Assembly (NCBI RefSeq): GCF_003074135.1
Contig: NZ_PPDK01000002.1
Coordinates: 248,001 to 312,000 of the forward strand
Direction: 5' to 3'
Source of the DNA: Euzebya tangerina
Lineage (GTDB): Bacteria > Actinomycetota > Nitriliruptoria > Euzebyales > Euzebyaceae
Length of the DNA stretch: 64,000 nucleotides
Positions 3,400 through 10,791 of the stretch are shown one piece after another; within the stretch, counting starts at the first letter, position 1; every line of letters begins with the position of its first letter. The notes under the pieces are model-generated. The model searched no databases, was not told where the DNA came from, and was given only the letters and a program-made list of their open reading frames with translations. A program made the translations under genes and the position numbers.

Positions 3400-3546
3400 G
3401 TCATGCTCGGTGGTTGTGACCGTCGTGCCAGCTGGAGGACCGTCAACAGATCGTCAACTGGACATCGTGGACGCTTGAATCCGGTGCACGAAAGCCCGAT
3501 GCTGGCTGGAAGCAGTCAAACCACTTGAACCCCAGGGGAGCACCAC

Positions 3547-3660
3547 GTGACGTACGAAGCACCGATGATCGAGCACACCGAGGACGTGGTCGGCCTGCTC
3601 GACCTCTGCAAGGTGTTCCCTGACTGGTGCGGCAACGGCGGCGGGGGCCATCACTCCTAG
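3547..3660 (+). CDS. Candidate RiPP precursor peptide, 37 residues
   Basis: Short GTG-started gene with an excellent ribosome site (AGGGGAG at 3534-3540, 6 bases upstream). The product starts MTYEAPMIEHTEDVVGLLDL, an acidic leader-like segment, followed by Cys21, an FPDWC segment with Cys28, and a tail GNGGGGHHS that ends in Ser37. Acidic N-terminus, small Cys/Gly-rich C-terminus and position next to a PqqD-like protein, kinase, nucleotidyltransferase/acetyltransferase, exporter and peptidase are what a ribosomally made, modified peptide precursor looks like. The C-terminal Ser is noteworthy because HprK-like kinases of lasso clusters (paeninodin type) phosphorylate the precursor's C-terminal Ser. 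No lasso signature (Thr two residues before a Gly with a ring acid at 7-9) is clear. Function is inferred; I do not recognise the peptide family. Confidence 0.7.
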   Translation: MTYEAPMIEHTEDVVGLLDLCKVFPDWCGNGGGGHHS

Positions 3661-3670
3661 TCGACGCCTG

Positions 3671-5785
3671 CTAGTCGGCCGTCTCCCGGAGTGACCGCTG
3701 GGTCCTCCGGGTCGTGATCAGGTGGTCGTCCGGTCCTGACGTGCGATAGTGCGGCACCCGGGGTCCTGCCTCTCGGGTGCGCTGCAGCAGCCGTCGAAGA
3801 CGAGGTTCACCCTTGAACCGGCGAGGCGGGGTCGGTGTCGCGACGATCCACGACTCGGACAGCGGGGTGTCGTCCGGGAGCGGCATGGGGTTGGTGGAGG
3901 CTACGAGTACCATGCCGCCAACACCGCGATCCCGCGTGGTCTGGGCCGCCGCGGCCAGCAGCCGCCACGAGTGACCCTGGCCGCGGTGGGACGGCAGGAT
4001 CTCCAGGTGACCCCACAGGTCCCACTCAGCGGTGTGTCCCTGTCGGGCGATGTACCCGATCGGGCCGCCGTGCTCGTCGTCCAAGATCAGCGCACGATCC
4101 TCCACGATTGCCGTCATCACCGGTTGGAGCCGCCGGCTCGAGGGAAGGCGGCCGGGGGTGCTCTTGCGCCGCAGCGCCATGAGGGCATCGACGTCTGAGA
4201 CGGTCGCGACCCGGGTCGGCACGGACGGCGCCTCCCAGGAGAACCCGGCGGGTAGCGCTGCCGCCTTCGAACGGTCTTCATGGAGCCAGCGGCGGCCGAC
4301 GTCGCGGAGCGGCTCGAGATCCTGCTCGAACCCCGCGATCGTGGTCGCACCGCCGCGGTCCAGCAGCCCGCCGAGCTGCTCCGCTGCTCGTGGGTCGATC
4401 AGGACGACGAAGGCCGGCATCACGCCGACGGCGACCCGCTGGGTGACGACCACCGCCAGGACGGCTCCGTCGTCGTCCCGGACCAGCCGGCGGCGGATCC
4501 GCGCTCTCGCTGTCATCGGGTTTGCAGCCGCGGACAGCAAGGGCGTGGCCCGGGGCTGCAGATGGCCCAGCAGGTCGTGGCATGCCCCGCTCGTGGCCAC
4601 CTCCTCGACCGCCATCCCACGCGGGCCGGCAACCCAGGTCAGATAGGCGGCCACCGATGCTGCCGAGGCATCCCCGGTCTTCCAGTCCAGCGCACCGCCC
4701 GGCTGGGTCAGGCCGGGGCGTCCTCGGAGGCGGACCAACTCCGCCCGGGCGGTCCGCAGCAGCGCTCGCGCTGTCTGGGTCAGCTGTGGCCGGCCAGCGG
4801 CCAGCAGCCACCCGGGGAGAAGACCTCGTCGGGCACCACGTCGTCGGGCACCGTCGGCCAGTTGGTTCGCCGCCAGCCACCCCGGCGGCGTCGGCAGGTG
4901 GTCCGCCAGCATGGCCGCACCCTCGGTCCCGAGCACCATCGCGCAGCGCTGCAGGACGGAGGCCGCCAGCGTCGCCACCCCGGTCGCCTCGGCCCGTCTC
5001 ACCACTGCTGCCACATCGGGGGCGGAGCCCTGCATCACCGCATCGATGTCGAGCAGGGCTCGAAGACCCCGCGCCCCCTCCAAGCCGGCATTGACGCAGA
5101 GGTGCAGCAAGGTGTCGATCGGGTCGAAGGTCCGGACCGGATCCTCGCCCACGGTGGTCTCCATGGACCGATCCAACAGACGCCCGCTGTCGATCCGCAG
5201 GCTCGTGCGATCGCGCGCCAGCCCGACGGTGTGGAAGTGCAGGTCCACGTCGAGCAGCCCGCCGCGGTGGCCGAAGGGAACCTCGGCGACGCCGTACTCG
5301 CGGAACCCGTCCCAATTGGTGGCGAGTGGCGCGAACCCGGCATCGGTCAGGCACTCGACCGCTCGGCCGAACGAGTGTCGGTCGACCAGCACATCCAGAT
5401 CGCTGTACACCCGGGACCCGGCATCGCGGTGGTGCAGCTCGGACAGGATGGGGCCCTTGAACACGGCGTGTCGCACCGGCAGGACCTGCCGGAGGACCGA
5501 CACCGTTCGGCGAGCCAGCAGGTGCCGACCGACGCTGTGGCGTCGCACCCGCTCGATCGTTGTCGCCAGATCCGGCGGCAGCTTTAACTCGGCGGCGGTC
5601 GCCCGCGCGCCGAGAACACCCAGCACCCGGTGCTCCGTCGCCGTGGCGATCGCGTGCTCACGTGCGGCCGGTGCGGCGTTCGACCAGGCCCGCCTGATCA
5701 CCCCACCTGGCGTCGCAGTCCGGAGCAACAGCACGAGCAGGTCCCGACCCTCGCGAGACGACGGCTGCTCCTCCTGCCGCTGCAT
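3671..5785 (-). CDS. Nucleotidyltransferase fused to a GNAT acetyltransferase
   Basis: The 704-residue product has two halves. About residues 15-345 match the stand-alone nucleotidyltransferase family (NTP_transf_5): FKGPILSELHHRD leads into GSRVYSDLDVLVD (123-135), whose DLD carries the metal-binding acids. About residues 425-650 look like GNAT: LEILPSHRGQGHSW (RGQGH at 601-605) is the acetyl-CoA loop. Stand-alone relatives of the first half occur in lasso-peptide and other RiPP clusters beside HprK-like kinases. Here it converges on the precursor gene and diverges from the PqqD/ABC operon with 95 bases between. TACTCT lies 6 bases before the ATG with no Shine-Dalgarno, so the transcript may be leaderless. 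A two-activity tailoring enzyme is the likely role; the fused arrangement is unusual. Confidence 0.75.
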   Translation of the reverse strand: MQRQEEQPSSREGRDLLVLLLRTATPGGVIRRAWSNAAPAAREHAIATATEHRVLGVLGARATAAELKLPPDLATTIERVRRHSVGRHLLARRTVSVLRQVLPVRHAVFKGPILSELHHRDAGSRVYSDLDVLVDRHSFGRAVECLTDAGFAPLATNWDGFREYGVAEVPFGHRGGLLDVDLHFHTVGLARDRTSLRIDSGRLLDRSMETTVGEDPVRTFDPIDTLLHLCVNAGLEGARGLRALLDIDAVMQGSAPDVAAVVRRAEATGVATLAASVLQRCAMVLGTEGAAMLADHLPTPPGWLAANQLADGARRRGARRGLLPGWLLAAGRPQLTQTARALLRTARAELVRLRGRPGLTQPGGALDWKTGDASAASVAAYLTWVAGPRGMAVEEVATSGACHDLLGHLQPRATPLLSAAANPMTARARIRRRLVRDDDGAVLAVVVTQRVAVGVMPAFVVLIDPRAAEQLGGLLDRGGATTIAGFEQDLEPLRDVGRRWLHEDRSKAAALPAGFSWEAPSVPTRVATVSDVDALMALRRKSTPGRLPSSRRLQPVMTAIVEDRALILDDEHGGPIGYIARQGHTAEWDLWGHLEILPSHRGQGHSWRLLAAAAQTTRDRGVGGMVLVASTNPMPLPDDTPLSESWIVATPTPPRRFKGEPRLRRLLQRTREAGPRVPHYRTSGPDDHLITTRRTQRSLRETAD

Positions 5786-5880
5786 CCCTGTAGAGTACGA
5801 GGAGGCGGGCTCAGGGCGGCTGTCCAGCTCGTCACCCGCAGCAGAGATGGTCGTCGCGTCGCGGCGGAGGAGGAGAGAAC

Positions 5881-6156
5881 GTGGCCGTGGTGCGTGCTCC
5901 CGGCGTGACCGCGGAACCGTCCGGGGATCGGACGGTCGTGCTGGACGCCGAGGCCACCACGATGTCGACGCTCAACCCGGTCGGAGCACTGCTGTTCGCC
6001 CAGCTGGTCACCCCGCACACCGCCGCCCAGTTGGTGGAGGTGCTGCGCCGTCAATTCCCTGACGTGCCCGTCACCACCCTGGAGAGCGACGTCGACAGCT
6101 TCCTCGCGCAGATGCGGTCAGCTGGTCTGATTGTTCCTGCTGATGCTGACGGCTGA
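5881..6156 (+). CDS. PqqD-like RiPP recognition protein
   Basis: A 91-residue protein with the PqqD/RRE pattern: an N-terminal beta region ending in TVVLDAEATTMSTLNPVGA, then helices spaced as in PqqD (VTPHTAAQLVEVLRRQF) and a final LLxxMxxAGL-type helix (FLAQMRSAGLIVP). PqqD-like domains bind leader peptides and present them to modifying enzymes. The GTG start follows GGAGGAGGAGAG closely. The ABC ATPase start overlaps its 3' end, so the three genes form one operon. It resembles the PqqD-related chaperone described for HprK-related kinase systems, but assignment to that subfamily needs a profile search. Confidence 0.75.
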   Translation: MAVVRAPGVTAEPSGDRTVVLDAEATTMSTLNPVGALLFAQLVTPHTAAQLVEVLRRQFPDVPVTTLESDVDSFLAQMRSAGLIVPADADG

Positions 6157-6913
6157 CGGCGTCTCCAAGACCTACGAGCCACCCACCGGACTGGCGGGCC
6201 TCCTGGTCCGGACGGCGTCGTCCGAGCCCATCCAGGCCGTTCGGGACATCACCTTCTCCGTCGGGCGTGGCGAGATCCTCGGTCTCGTCGGGCCCAACGG
6301 CGCCGGCAAATCGACCCTGTTGCGAATGTGTGCCGGATTGCTGACGCCGACGTCCGGTCGGGTGACCGTGGATGGCCGTGACGTTGCGACCGACCCGGCG
6401 GACGTGCGACGCATCACCGGACTGCTGCTGGCGGACGATCGTGCCCTCTACTGGCGCCTCACGGGCCGCCAGAACCTCCGGTTCTTCGGGGTCATGGCCG
6501 GGCTGAGCGCTGCCGAGGCCCGGCGCCGGTCAGAGCTGCTCATGGAGGAGTTCGGCCTGGCTGATCGGGACCGACGGGTCTTCGGGTACTCCTCCGGCAT
6601 GCGAGTACGGCTGGGACTGGCCCGGACGCTCATCGCCGACCCGGAACTCGTCATCCTGGACGAGCCGACGCGGTCCCTTGACCCAGCCGCCAGCAGCGAT
6701 CTGCTGCGTCGGGTTCGACACCTCCGCGAGTCGGGCCGCGCCGTGGTCCTCTCGACCCATCGGCTGACCGAGGTCGAGGCGGTCTGTGATCGGGTGGTCG
6801 TGCTCGACCAGGGAGCGGCGCTCCTCGCTGCGGCCGTGGCTGACCTGGCGGCGGATGGCTCACCGCCGACCGAGGTCCTGACCCGGCTGCTCGGAGCGGA
6901 GCTGGACCCGTGA
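6143..6913 (+). CDS. ABC transporter ATP-binding protein
   Basis: 256-residue ABC ATPase with Walker A GPNGAGKST, signature YSSGM, Walker B LVILDEP followed by the D-loop region SLDP, and the H-loop STH. It pairs with the ABC-2 type permease directly downstream (4-base overlap), so the complex is most likely an exporter for the modified peptide or gives self-protection. The ATG at 6143 overlaps the PqqD-like gene by 14 bases; a TTG at 6131 is possible but less likely. Confidence 0.9.
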   Translation: MLTADGVSKTYEPPTGLAGLLVRTASSEPIQAVRDITFSVGRGEILGLVGPNGAGKSTLLRMCAGLLTPTSGRVTVDGRDVATDPADVRRITGLLLADDRALYWRLTGRQNLRFFGVMAGLSAAEARRRSELLMEEFGLADRDRRVFGYSSGMRVRLGLARTLIADPELVILDEPTRSLDPAASSDLLRRVRHLRESGRAVVLSTHRLTEVEAVCDRVVVLDQGAALLAAAVADLAADGSPPTEVLTRLLGAELDP

Positions 6914-7737
6914 CAGCGCGTGGCCGACGCAGTGGATTGGGCAGCAGACTGCTGGCCATCGCACGGCGCGACACCGAGACCGAGCTCAGCTATCGCTTCC
7001 GTCTCGCCTCGCTCCTCGTCTCGCCGTTCATCGGGGCGTTCCTCGCGTTCTACATCGCCCGGCTGGTCGGCACCGGCGGGCCGCTTGCCGAGTACGACGG
7101 CACCTACTTCGACTACGTCGTGGTGGGGTTGGCGCTGACCTCCTACGCGGCCCTCGGCGTCAGCGCGTTCACCCAGCGGATCGCTCAAGAGCAGACCGCC
7201 GGCACGCTGGAGGTGCTGCTGGCCGGACCGACGCGGCTGCCCACGCTCCTGGCCGGTGGGTTCATCGTGCCGCTCGGCCTGACGACGATCCAGGTCGTCG
7301 GGCTGATCGGCATCGGGGTCGGACTGGTCGGCACCGGTCTCTCGCCGGGCGCGGTCGTCGGCGCTCTCCCCGTCCTGGTCCTCATGATCCTAAACTTTGT
7401 CGCGGTCGGCGTCGTCGCGGGCGCCGTGACGCTGCTGTCGAAGCGAGGTGATCCCATCTCGCGTGGGTTCTACCAGCTGACGCTGCTGCTCAGCGGTGCG
7501 GTGATTCCGCTCGAGCTCTTCCCGGGCTGGATGCAGCTGATCGGGCGGGCCACACCGGCCTTCTACGGCGTCCGAGGCCTGCGTGACGCCGTGCTCACCG
7601 ACGGCGGAGTCGGAGCGGCGGCTGACGAGGTGCTGATCCTGCTCGGCTTCGCGATCATCACCGTTCCGCTCGCCATCGGCCTCTTCGCGGCGGCGGTCCG
7701 CAGCGCCAAGCGCTACGGCATCCTCGGCACCTACTGA
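6910..7737 (+). CDS. ABC-2 type transporter permease
   Basis: 275-residue integral membrane protein with about six hydrophobic segments (LLVSPFIGAFLAFYIARLV, a long central stretch of alternating hydrophobic helices, and GFAIITVPLAIGLFAAAV near the end), matching the ABC-2 permease fold. It is coupled to the ATPase by a GTGA overlap. Its stop runs 7 bases into the convergent kinase gene. The substrate is unknown; the surrounding genes suggest the peptide encoded at 3547. Confidence 0.85.
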   Translation: MTARGRRSGLGSRLLAIARRDTETELSYRFRLASLLVSPFIGAFLAFYIARLVGTGGPLAEYDGTYFDYVVVGLALTSYAALGVSAFTQRIAQEQTAGTLEVLLAGPTRLPTLLAGGFIVPLGLTTIQVVGLIGIGVGLVGTGLSPGAVVGALPVLVLMILNFVAVGVVAGAVTLLSKRGDPISRGFYQLTLLLSGAVIPLELFPGWMQLIGRATPAFYGVRGLRDAVLTDGGVGAAADEVLILLGFAIITVPLAIGLFAAAVRSAKRYGILGTY

Positions 7738-8702
7738 CCCGCCTGCTGGCCCGCGCGGCTCTCAAGGGCCGACTCGATGGCGGCGCTGGCCCTCGTCAGG
7801 CGCCGGGCCGGATCGGCTGCCAGTCCCAGACGCCAGCCGGGCAGCCTGGCCAGGCCCGCGAGGTGTGGCAACCCGCGACGGAGCGAGTCCGGGTCGTGGG
7901 CGTCCAGATATGACGAGGTCAGGACGGACAGGCGATGGTGGTGCGGGAGGGGCTCCATGCGGCCGTCGCCCTCATCGTGGGCGGCGACGATCAGACCGGT
8001 GACCGCTCGCCGCCCGGTGGCGAAGACGTCGCCCGCGACCATCAGCCGACCACGATGATCCCCGGGCAGCGGCCCCGTCACCGGAAGGGTGTCGCCAGCC
8101 ATGCTGGCCAGGTCCGAGGCGATGGCCATCCGCTTGGGCATCCCGACGGCGGTGGCCGGTCCGCTGTCCGGCCGCTCGACGATGATCAGGTCGTCTGCGT
8201 GGAGGGACCACCCGGCTGCGCACAGGGCCACGGCGATGGTGGACTTCCCGGTTCCCGTCGGCCCGAGCAGCAGCACGGTCTGGTCCGCGCGAGATGCCAT
8301 GGCGGCATGCAGAGCCAGTCGATCGCGGCGCCCCAGGACCCAGGACAGTGAGCTGAACAGCAACTGCCGGACCATCTTCCAGAGCTGGTCGTCGGGCGGG
8401 TTCCCCCCGACGAGGACGACGTGATCATCTGCGGTTGCCCGACCGCCGCTGACGTGGGCCAGGTGAAGCCGCCCGGTGTCACGCCAGAGCTGAACAGGAC
8501 CGTCCACGTGGTCGGGTGGTCGACCGGGCACAGCCGGTGGTCGACGGACGAGTTCGACTTGCAGGACGCGTTCTGCCGAGGAGCGTGGCAGGGCACCGAA
8601 GTGCCACGACGCGCAGCGATGGAGATCCGCATCAGCGGCGCTGATCCTGACCGGCAGGTCCGCCAGGTCCACCGTCCACGCCGCGTGTGTCACTGCAGGC
8701 AT
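7731..8702 (-). CDS. HprK-related kinase
   Basis: 323-residue protein with a C-terminal HPr-kinase-like P-loop domain: Walker A LLLGPTGTGKST (144-155), then the characteristic two-acid segment SLHADDLIIVE (about 167-177). The N-terminal 120 residues are family-specific. This class is not the sugar-phosphotransferase regulator; relatives sit with PqqD-like proteins, and lasso-peptide homologues phosphorylate a Ser in the precursor tail. The precursor here ends in Ser. I set the start at the ATG at 8700-8702, since the longer open frame upstream has shadow-like composition and runs over the divergent peptidase gene. It shares an 89-base bidirectional promoter region with that gene. Confidence 0.75.
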   Translation of the reverse strand: MPAVTHAAWTVDLADLPVRISAADADLHRCASWHFGALPRSSAERVLQVELVRRPPAVPGRPPDHVDGPVQLWRDTGRLHLAHVSGGRATADDHVVLVGGNPPDDQLWKMVRQLLFSSLSWVLGRRDRLALHAAMASRADQTVLLLGPTGTGKSTIAVALCAAGWSLHADDLIIVERPDSGPATAVGMPKRMAIASDLASMAGDTLPVTGPLPGDHRGRLMVAGDVFATGRRAVTGLIVAAHDEGDGRMEPLPHHHRLSVLTSSYLDAHDPDSLRRGLPHLAGLARLPGWRLGLAADPARRLTRASAAIESALESRAGQQAGQ

Positions 8703-8791
8703 GCTAATGAGCTGAGCTGGCTCAGGTCGTTGGTCCAGCGAGTGGGCAGGTCGTCCCGCGGACCCAGCGGCGGCGGGTACGGTCCAGGCAC

Positions 8792-9208
8792 ATGGTGGCA
8801 CCCGACGTGAGAGCTCGTCTCTTCCGGCACCGGCTCGACCGGGAGGCGACGTGGATTGCGACCGACGGCGCGTCGATGGGGCGTCGCTGGCAGGCGGGTG
8901 TGCGCGTGCTGCTCGAGGCGGTCGATCGGGCGCCACGACGGGGGGAGGTCTGGGCCTACTGCACGGCGGAGGGCAAGTTGGTGGTGCATCGCTACGTGCG
9001 GTGCCGCGATGGCCTTCACGTCTTCCAGGGGGACGCGTCCTTCCGGCCCGACCAGCCGGTGCCGACGACGTGGCTGGTCGGGCGTGTCCGCTCGGTCACG
9101 GACGGCACCCGGACCTGGTCGCCACGCCGCCGGCATGTGATGGCCTCGCGGGTTTCGGCGACGGTGCCGGCGATCCGACGTCGCCTACGGCGGGCCATCC
9201 ACGAGTAG
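8792..9208 (+). CDS. S24/S26-type (signal-peptidase-like) peptidase
   Basis: 138 residues with the S26 landmarks: TDGASMGRRW with candidate nucleophile Ser28, RRGEVWAY (box C-like), VVHRYVR with His66 at the position of the general base, and a GDASFRPDQPV segment (80-90) as in GDN/GD boxes. Having His rather than Lys recalls ER/archaeal-type signal peptidases. No membrane anchor is visible, so it is probably soluble. The setting suggests it cleaves the leader from, or trims, the 37-residue precursor, in place of the usual cysteine-protease/transglutaminase-like enzyme. TACGGT 8 bases before the ATG and no Shine-Dalgarno suggest a leaderless transcript. Confidence 0.65.
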   Translation: MVAPDVRARLFRHRLDREATWIATDGASMGRRWQAGVRVLLEAVDRAPRRGEVWAYCTAEGKLVVHRYVRCRDGLHVFQGDASFRPDQPVPTTWLVGRVRSVTDGTRTWSPRRRHVMASRVSATVPAIRRRLRRAIHE

Positions 9209-9423: not shown

Positions 9424-10791
9424 GTGACCCCGGGGGGAGCAGGGAGGCGGACGGCATTCCAGCGTGCCGTGCGCATCATCGTGGCCGCATTCCTCGACGG
9501 CTCCTGGGAACCGACCGCAATGGCCGCCCGGGCGCACCACGACCTCGGACTGCTCACCGTGCGGAGGGAGATCGACTTCGGAGGGACCGAACCCTACGTG
9601 TGGTTGCACCGAGCCGCAGACCTCGTAGCCGACACCTTCGTGGCACCACCGCGGTCCGAACTCCGTGCGATGCGAGTGCTGGTCGCCGAGCACGCCGCCC
9701 CGGCCATCCTGCCGCTCCTGGACCACCCGATCGCGGGACCGCACACGGGGACCGCGCTCGTGAGTTCTGCGATGAGCGAGCCGCGGTGGCCCGTTGTCCA
9801 CCTGGACACGGTGGGTGACGTGGCTGCTGCGCTCGGCCTCCTCCCGACCCAGCTGTCCTGGTTCGCCGACGTCGCATCGCTGGAGCAGTCGGTGACCGAC
9901 GAGCGTCTGCGGCACTACCGCTACCGGTGGGTGGCCAAGTCGGGCAGCGGGCAGCGGCTGGTCGAGGCGCCGAAGCAGACCTTGCGTCGGGTGCAGCGCT
10001 GGGTCCTGCGCAGGGTGCTCCACAACATCCCAGTTCACCCGGCCACGCACGGCTTCGTGCCGGGACGCTCCGTCCACACCTACGTGGGCCCGCATGTCGG
10101 GCGACGGGTGGTGGTCTCGCTGGACCTCCGCAACTTCTTCACATCTGTGGCGGCGGGGCGGGTGTTCGGCATCTTCAGGGTGGCGGGGTATGCCGACTCG
10201 GTAGCGCACACCCTCACGGGACTGATGACCAATGCGGTCCCCGCTGACATCCTCCGAGGGCATCCGGATGCGCCCCGTGCCCTCCGGTTCCCTCACCTCC
10301 CGCAGGGCGCGCCGACGTCGCCGGCACTCGCCAACCTCGCCGCGTTCTCCCTCGACCGTCGATTGTCCGGGTTGGCCACGGCTATGGACTTGCGCTACAC
10401 GAGGTACGCCGACGACCTGGCCTTCTCGAGCGCTGGCGGGCTGAGCCGTCGAGCACGGCGGCGACTGGTCGTGACGGTCGAGGAGATCGCGCGCGCGGAG
10501 GGCTTCGACGTGAACCGGGCAAAGACGCGGGCAGCCACGGCCGGCCGACAGCAGCGCCTGGCTGGCCGGGTGGTCAACGCCGTCGACAACGCGCCGCGTC
10601 GGGACTACGACCGTCTTCGGGCAGTGCTGCACGACGCGAGCATCAACGGACCAGTCGCCGCGAATCGCGAGGGTCACCCCGCGTTCGAGGCGCATCTCCG
10701 TGGGCGCATCCACTGGGTCGCGAGCGACAGTCCTGCCCGGCAGCGGCGCCTGTGGCAGCTGTTCGACCAGATCGATTGGTCCGAAGGATGA
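9424..10791 (+). CDS. Retron-type reverse transcriptase
   Basis: 455-residue RNA-directed DNA polymerase. RT motifs in order: SGSGQRLVEAPK (173-184), HGFVPGRS (209-216), VSLDLRNFFTS with the first catalytic Asp (231-241), LPQGAPTSPALANL (292-305) and TRYADDLAFSS with YADD at 328-331. The C-terminus keeps the RLAGRVVN and HLRGRIHWV segments of retron-like RTs, and no maturase or integrase domain follows, which argues against a group II intron or retroelement. About 150 N-terminal residues precede the RT core, as in the myxobacterial-like clade of long retron RTs. A structured RNA candidate lies just upstream. The GTG at 9424 has only a distant ribosome site; an alternative GTG is at 9469. No clear effector gene is fused or adjacent. 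Confidence 0.9.
   Translation: MTPGGAGRRTAFQRAVRIIVAAFLDGSWEPTAMAARAHHDLGLLTVRREIDFGGTEPYVWLHRAADLVADTFVAPPRSELRAMRVLVAEHAAPAILPLLDHPIAGPHTGTALVSSAMSEPRWPVVHLDTVGDVAAALGLLPTQLSWFADVASLEQSVTDERLRHYRYRWVAKSGSGQRLVEAPKQTLRRVQRWVLRRVLHNIPVHPATHGFVPGRSVHTYVGPHVGRRVVVSLDLRNFFTSVAAGRVFGIFRVAGYADSVAHTLTGLMTNAVPADILRGHPDAPRALRFPHLPQGAPTSPALANLAAFSLDRRLSGLATAMDLRYTRYADDLAFSSAGGLSRRARRRLVVTVEEIARAEGFDVNRAKTRAATAGRQQRLAGRVVNAVDNAPRRDYDRLRAVLHDASINGPVAANREGHPAFEAHLRGRIHWVASDSPARQRRLWQLFDQIDWSEG

Follow-up and report, generated by a model that had tools for sequence, protein, structure and literature searches.

Positions 3547–9208 of the window (the whole 64 000-nucleotide stretch of Euzebya tangerina DNA analysed here) raise the question of what seven neighbouring genes make together. 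The first-pass annotation had read them as a set for a modified secreted peptide, in which a leader binder, tailoring enzymes, a protease and an ABC exporter would serve a precursor, and had called the system uncharacterised. Comparison of eight loci supports the set. The word 'uncharacterised' no longer applies in full to this kind of system, since a publication of May 2026 described linear polyphosphorylated peptides (LPPs) in Bacillota that have the same enzyme set (Popov et al.; PMC13381572). On the sequence comparisons given below, the cluster is read as an actinobacterial LPP-like variant that would work like the LPP pathway.

The LPP enzymes are the SipW-like peptidase LppS, the RRE LppB, the HprK-like kinase LppK, the NTP transferase LppN and the MsbA-like transporter LppD (PMC13381572). 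The LPP precursor carries the consensus YxxPxVLxHQxIxFETxxS; it is cut after T-1 and Ser3 of the core is phosphorylated. Residues S29, H68 and D93 of LppS are each needed for leader cleavage, N33, D70 and F74 of LppB contact Y-16 and P-13 of the leader, and LppN was inactive in the published expression host. LPPs were stated by the authors to be restricted to Bacillota and often lie in capsule loci (PMC13381572).

Gene content and predicted proteins

All seven open reading frames were recovered from the window sequence by an ORF check where the first-pass annotation had placed them (Table 1), and the protein families that it claimed were matched directly in Pfam or NCBIfam, with two exceptions: the peptidase, and the GNAT half of the 704-residue protein.

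Table 1. Features of the peptide-modification locus (window coordinates).
Feature	Position	Strand	Evidence and remarks
Shine–Dalgarno-like AGGGGAG	3534..3540	+	Sequence; 6 nt 5' of the precursor GTG; comparable sites 5' of the L031 and L120 precursors
Precursor peptide, 37 aa, VTYEAPMIEHTEDVVGLLDLCKVFPDWCGNGGGGHHS	3547..3660	+	GTG start at 3547; leader to about VGLL; predicted tail DLCKVFPDWCGNGGGGHHS; 16-aa leader block common to eight loci
NTP_transf_5 (about residues 1–330) and tandem-GNAT (about 331–704) fusion, 704 aa	3671..5785	−	Pfam, profiles, Foldseek
Divergent intergenic region, NTP/GNAT gene and RRE gene	5786..5880	.	Gene coordinates
PqqD-like RiPP recognition element (RRE), 91 aa	5881..6156	+	PqqD PF05402 (Pfam), E = 6e-15; LppB (9x8z) is the best PDB profile match
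DrrA-like ABC exporter ATPase	6131..6913	+	ABC_tran, E = 6e-31
DrrB-like ABC-2 type permease	6910..7737	+	ABC2_membrane, E = 1e-15
HprK-like kinase, 323 aa	7731..8702	−	H132, P-loop G147–T155 and D170–D171 kept; profile match to 1jb1
Divergent intergenic region, kinase gene and peptidase gene	8703..8791	.	Gene coordinates
Soluble SipW/Sec11-like S26 (S24-fold) peptidase, 138 aa, predicted leader peptidase	8792..9208	+	S28/H66/D87; homologues, fold model

When the RRE profile was compared with the PDB, LppB matched best (E = 2.5e-8), ahead of TbiB1 (1.8e-7). Residues N32, D70 and F74, at the positions of LppB N33, D70 and F74, are invariant in seven RREs. In the RRE tree six members of the system share a side with LppB, though with a support of only 48%. 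The match of the kinase to TIGR04352 (E = 2.5e-10) is confined to the P-loop region and scores well short of the cut-off set for that model; its conserved residues are the P-loop, His and Asp-Asp of HPr kinases, and its profile matched HPr kinase 1jb1 with E = 6e-6. The exporter is encoded by two separate DrrAB-like genes.

In the 704-residue protein NTP_transf_5 (PF14907) was matched over residues 43–285 with E = 9e-30. For the C-terminal half, Pfam gave GNAT matches below threshold and a profile comparison hit GNATs of solved structure (best E = 1e-4). Its structure model, only moderately confident (mean pLDDT 65), resembled tandem GNATs in Foldseek (best E = 4e-11). The two parts are separate genes in L031, L120, L122 and L157. 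A GNAT homologous to that of the system also lies at 5502–7631 (−) of L127, in an apparent lasso cluster (precursor YEAPAVTVLGQMAELTLGWHPGNSKEWPCHSDGTGYSS).

The peptidase of the window had no significant Pfam match, and its first-pass assignment to the S26 type is supported by homologues and structure modelling. PF00717 was matched in the homologues with E values of 2e-4 to 4e-2, S28, H66 and D87 are invariant in seven of them, and the structure model is confident (pLDDT 87.6); in Foldseek it came closest to the C-domains of LexA and lambda repressor, to SipA and to human signal peptidase (probability 1.00, best E = 2e-3). Related yet different clusters, at 9685–11985 of L161 and also in L159 and L160, contain a PqqD protein, a radical-SAM-like fragment, an HprK-like kinase, a SipW-like peptidase scoring above the TIGR02228 cut-off and a 57-residue peptide (MKDSGRRLYRAPQIERVPLVAKEAVL...CSAVGS); they possibly form a third kind of cluster with the same protease type.

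Joint control of the genes had also been proposed. Two divergent gene pairs are present, yet a search of the intergenic regions turned up no convincing promoter element common to them, so that joint control stays a hypothesis. The cluster is flanked by a ribonucleotide reductase-like gene on the left and a reverse transcriptase gene on the right, with no glycosyltransferase or polymer gene adjoining it. The reverse transcriptase gene, at 9424–10791 (+), is directly 3' of the cluster and outside the conserved set; its best matches were the PADLOC retron models 'RT_other' (E = 2e-147) and 'RT_outgroup', and it scored below the NCBIfam retron cut-offs. An Rfam search of the window gave no match.

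Distribution and the shared leader block

The set was found together with a matching short peptide in seven further actinobacterial genomes, giving eight loci with the window. A kinase search led to L031 (a Microthrixaceae MAG, G295 contig C11), in which all parts are present; the remaining relatives from this search were mostly lasso-type or other HprK loci without an S26 gene and were set aside. Profile searches of the set added six genomes: L120 and L157 are complete, L121/L122 is one genome on two contigs, L124/L123 is split, with no NTP_transf_5 gene nearby and with the RRE and exporter elsewhere, L156 lies at a contig end and carries the peptidase, NTP_transf_5 and precursors, and L158 has frameshifts in several cluster genes. 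The set is complete or nearly so on one contig in three of the seven other genomes. The S26 gene adjoins the kinase gene and usually also the precursor gene.

The first-pass annotation had proposed two checks, namely whether homologous loci possess a short peptide gene and whether kinase and peptidase occur together. A matching peptide gene was present in eight of eight loci, and the kinase and peptidase genes were divergent neighbours in all seven loci with both on the contig, the eighth (L156) being cut by the contig end. The system is rare, with strong peptidase matches in three of 396 genomes sampled across the phylum and system peptidase matches in four of 298 genomes from the order to which L031 belongs; the genomes are a sample that includes many MAGs, and phylogenies of such short proteins are not resolved. 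Searches of genome contigs with the 704-residue protein, of viral contigs with the RRE and of plasmids with the S26 protein returned nothing, and the sole match of a concatenated-profile search of genome contigs was the known Microthrixaceae contig. The host has a second PqqD/HprK/NTP_transf_5 locus at 9130–12166 of L103 (G000 contig C1, about 1805129–1808165), beside glycosyltransferase- and polysaccharide-type genes. It includes a secreted collagen-like PGEPG-repeat protein with an RR-signal-like start, YAAPTILVL, that is reminiscent of an RRE-binding leader motif.

Common to the peptides of the eight loci is a leader block, Y-x-[AKR]-P-x-[IV]-x5-[VIL]-x-[GA]-[LMQ]-[LM], that is 16 residues long in every case; beyond it the tails diverge. 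The blocks are YEAPMIEHTEDVVGLL (window), YSAPKIKTRSAVKGLM (L031), YAAPKIESRAEVKGLM (L120), YEAPAVTDHAQIRAML (L122), YEAPAIAERESILGLL (L124), YEKPEIEQRVALTALL plus two YSKPEIERR repeats (L156), YERPAIEDRKDLEGQL (L157) and YTAPKIEARSDVKGLM (L158). In 1.1 Mb of examined loci, read in six frames, the pattern matched 11 times, ten of them at the precursor position of such clusters, and in three shuffles it did not match at all; the pattern was written after the members had been seen, so this count measures specificity and is not an independent discovery. By the same count the possibility that the 37-residue ORF is a spurious small ORF was rejected. Codon differences within the leader among the three closest relatives fall mostly at third positions (9/4/17 at positions 1/2/3). 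No precursor matched an NCBIfam family, and that of the window had no match in Pfam, NCBIfam or PHROGs.

The precursor gene is head-on to the GNAT gene in the window, L031, L120, L122, L124 and L157. In the last five of these it comes after the peptidase gene and both are read from one strand; in the window it lies apart from that gene. At 1643–2150 (−) of L156 the precursor genes are in tandem, and one ORF contains two YSKPEIERR leader-block copies, which may yield two tails per precursor. The tails after the block are DLCKVFPDWCGNGGGGHHS (window), GSWGGGGGHNGGGGGYR, KGRGGHHGGGYR, HHKHNGGGAS, KKDPS, GGKGGGGHCRPGCGQS and GLESQFSF (L156), that of L158 being left out because of the frameshifts on its contig. 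They are 5–19 residues long; five of the seven are rich in Gly, and Ser is the last residue of four. The peptides with C-terminal Ser are those of the window, L122, L124 and L157. Those of L031 and L120 end in YR, and the L120 tail has neither Ser nor Thr.

Proposed pathway and alternative readings

What the comparison establishes, at the level of sequence, is which genes form the set, that the leader is shared, that catalytic residues are conserved and that enzymes for closing a lasso ring are absent. Every chemical step, and with it the site of phosphorylation, the point of cleavage, the sequence of events and export, we infer by homology to LppK, LppS and LppB and, for the NTP_transf_5 step, to PsmN. 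On this basis the cluster is probably a RiPP cluster that operates like the LPP pathway. The RRE would bind the YxxPxI block of the precursor leader and the HprK-like kinase would phosphorylate a hydroxyl residue. The NTP_transf_5 half of the 704-residue enzyme would then decorate the phosphate (the relative PsmN adds a hexose), and the tandem GNAT half would acylate the peptide, for example at its new N-terminus or on the decoration; their fusion suggests that both act in sequence on the same intermediate, and it could reveal what the NTP transferase needs. The RRE would present the leader to the soluble Ser-His-Asp peptidase, and the DrrAB-type ABC exporter would secrete a linear peptide of about 19 residues.

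The simplest candidate for the phosphosite is the C-terminal Ser of GGGGHHS, by analogy with the site used by paeninodin-type kinases (PMC8498205). It cannot hold throughout, since the L031 and L120 peptides end in YR; judged from the tails, a single fixed phosphosite does not fit all members. The predicted leader peptidase would cut the leader off at the conserved [GA][LMQ][LM] or close to it, and analogy with LPPs places the predicted cut after the final Leu or Met of the block. Signal peptidases follow a small-residue rule at the cleavage site, by which the cut could sit two residues earlier, after the conserved Gly or Ala.

Several observations count against an LPP-like pathway: the LPP consensus is only partial, neither the NTP_transf_5 nor the RRE tree gives one clade (in the former the system is not resolved as a clade, nor is this excluded), no single phosphosite suits every tail, LppN was inactive in its expression host and L124 has no nearby NTP_transf_5 gene. 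An alternative is a distinct RiPP class, convergent with LPPs, in which very short Gly/His-rich peptides receive from the kinase, NTP transferase and GNAT another kind of decoration, which might bind metal or be an acyl phosphate. The different exporter type, the added tandem GNAT, the other phylum, the short His/Gly/Cys-rich cores lacking Ser3, the differing C-terminal leader half and the lack of resolution in the RRE tree all fit such a class; the LPP-like enzyme logic, leader length, landmark positions and catalytic triad of the peptidase speak against it, as does the fact that the RRE matches LppB best in the PDB, and we regard it as rather unlikely. Framed as a separate actinobacterial class, making an acylated phospho-conjugate on ultra-short, perhaps metal-binding, Gly/His-rich peptides with a soluble SipW-like protease acquired separately from that of the Bacillota LPPs, it is an unlikely reading too.

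Very improbable is a reading in which the substrate of the kinase, nucleotidyltransferase and GNAT is a sugar or a polymer of the cell surface and the small peptide serves as a regulatory or scaffold part. PqqD, HprK and NTP_transf_5 genes do occur in polysaccharide regions, as in L103 of the same genome, and the frequent location of Bacillota LPPs in capsule loci (PMC13381572) points the same way, but the flanks here hold no polymer gene and an RRE-type leader peptide accompanies all eight loci. A lasso cluster that has decayed, or that has its cyclase and B2 protease encoded at another place in the genome, would suit the YxxPx[LVI] leader, the PqqD-like B1, the HprK kinase and NTP_transf_5, each of which is associated with lasso peptides; real clusters of the lasso type that contain related enzymes also exist in the same phylum (e.g. 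L046, L127 and L129–L132). The first-pass annotation had seen neither enzyme in the cluster, and their absence proved to be genome-wide: neither PF13471 (Transglut_core3, B2 protease) nor PF00733 (Asn_synthase, cyclase) was found in the whole 98%-complete host genome, while control genomes gave matches, and supply in trans was rejected on these grounds. The leader also lacks the penultimate Thr, the Gly-rich tails of L031 and L120 have no Asp or Glu to close a ring and a dedicated peptidase replaces B2 in every member, so that a lasso cluster is hardly credible.

Comparison with known systems

Likeness to SynChlorMet is confined to weak matches of the kinase to ScmC (HprK-like) and of the RRE to ScmD (PqqD-like), both far below the cut-offs, and no radical SAM protein (ScmE/ScmF) is among the seven genes. 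The kinase and the PqqD-like protein also match the HPr-rel-A models of NCBIfam weakly (TIGR04352 and TIGR04353), but their scores of 39.9 and 17.5 bits, where the cut-offs are 200 and 35, do not make them members by those models. In paeninodin-type lasso peptides HprK-like kinases phosphorylate the C-terminal Ser and NTP_transf_5 enzymes phosphoglycosylate, PsmN adding hexose to the phosphate (PMC8498205). The paeninodin and pseudomycoidin systems share with the present one a PqqD-like B1, an HprK-like kinase and an NTP_transf_5 enzyme; here the lasso cyclase and transglutaminase-like B2 protease are missing and the leader ends differently.

The likeness to LPPs, as in the lpp cluster of Paenibacillus alginolyticus, extends to a discrete RRE, an HprK-like kinase, an NTP transferase, a Ser-His-Asp SipW-like peptidase and the lack of a macrolactam cyclase. 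Leader positions Y-16, P-13, [IV]-11 and [VIL]-5 correspond to Y-16, P-13, V-11 and I-5 of LppA, and the block ends at the LppA cut site. S28, H66 and D87 correspond to LppS S29, H68 and D93, D87 (rather than D81) being matched by motif, without the LppS sequence. The invariant RRE residues and the best PDB match to LppB make leader binding here a sequence-based prediction. LPPs had been reported only from Bacillota, with no activity assigned to their NTP transferase; a compact actinobacterial version without lasso neighbours or capsule genes offers a clean second test of the LPP enzyme logic. A small RRE together with a SipW-like protease can flag RiPP clusters outside Bacillota whose peptides are too short for ordinary annotation. 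The cluster is not filed as an LPP because two LPP features, the transporter and the precursor consensus, are not matched: a two-gene DrrAB exporter takes the place of the MsbA-like single-chain ABC transporter, and no member has HQ, FET or Ser3, so that the leader differs in its C-terminal half. The system further differs from LPPs in its extra tandem GNAT, which in this genome forms one protein with the NTP transferase, in tails of 5–19 residues, often Gly/His-rich, rather than 45, and in its occurrence in Actinomycetota, outside a capsule locus, rather than in Bacillota.
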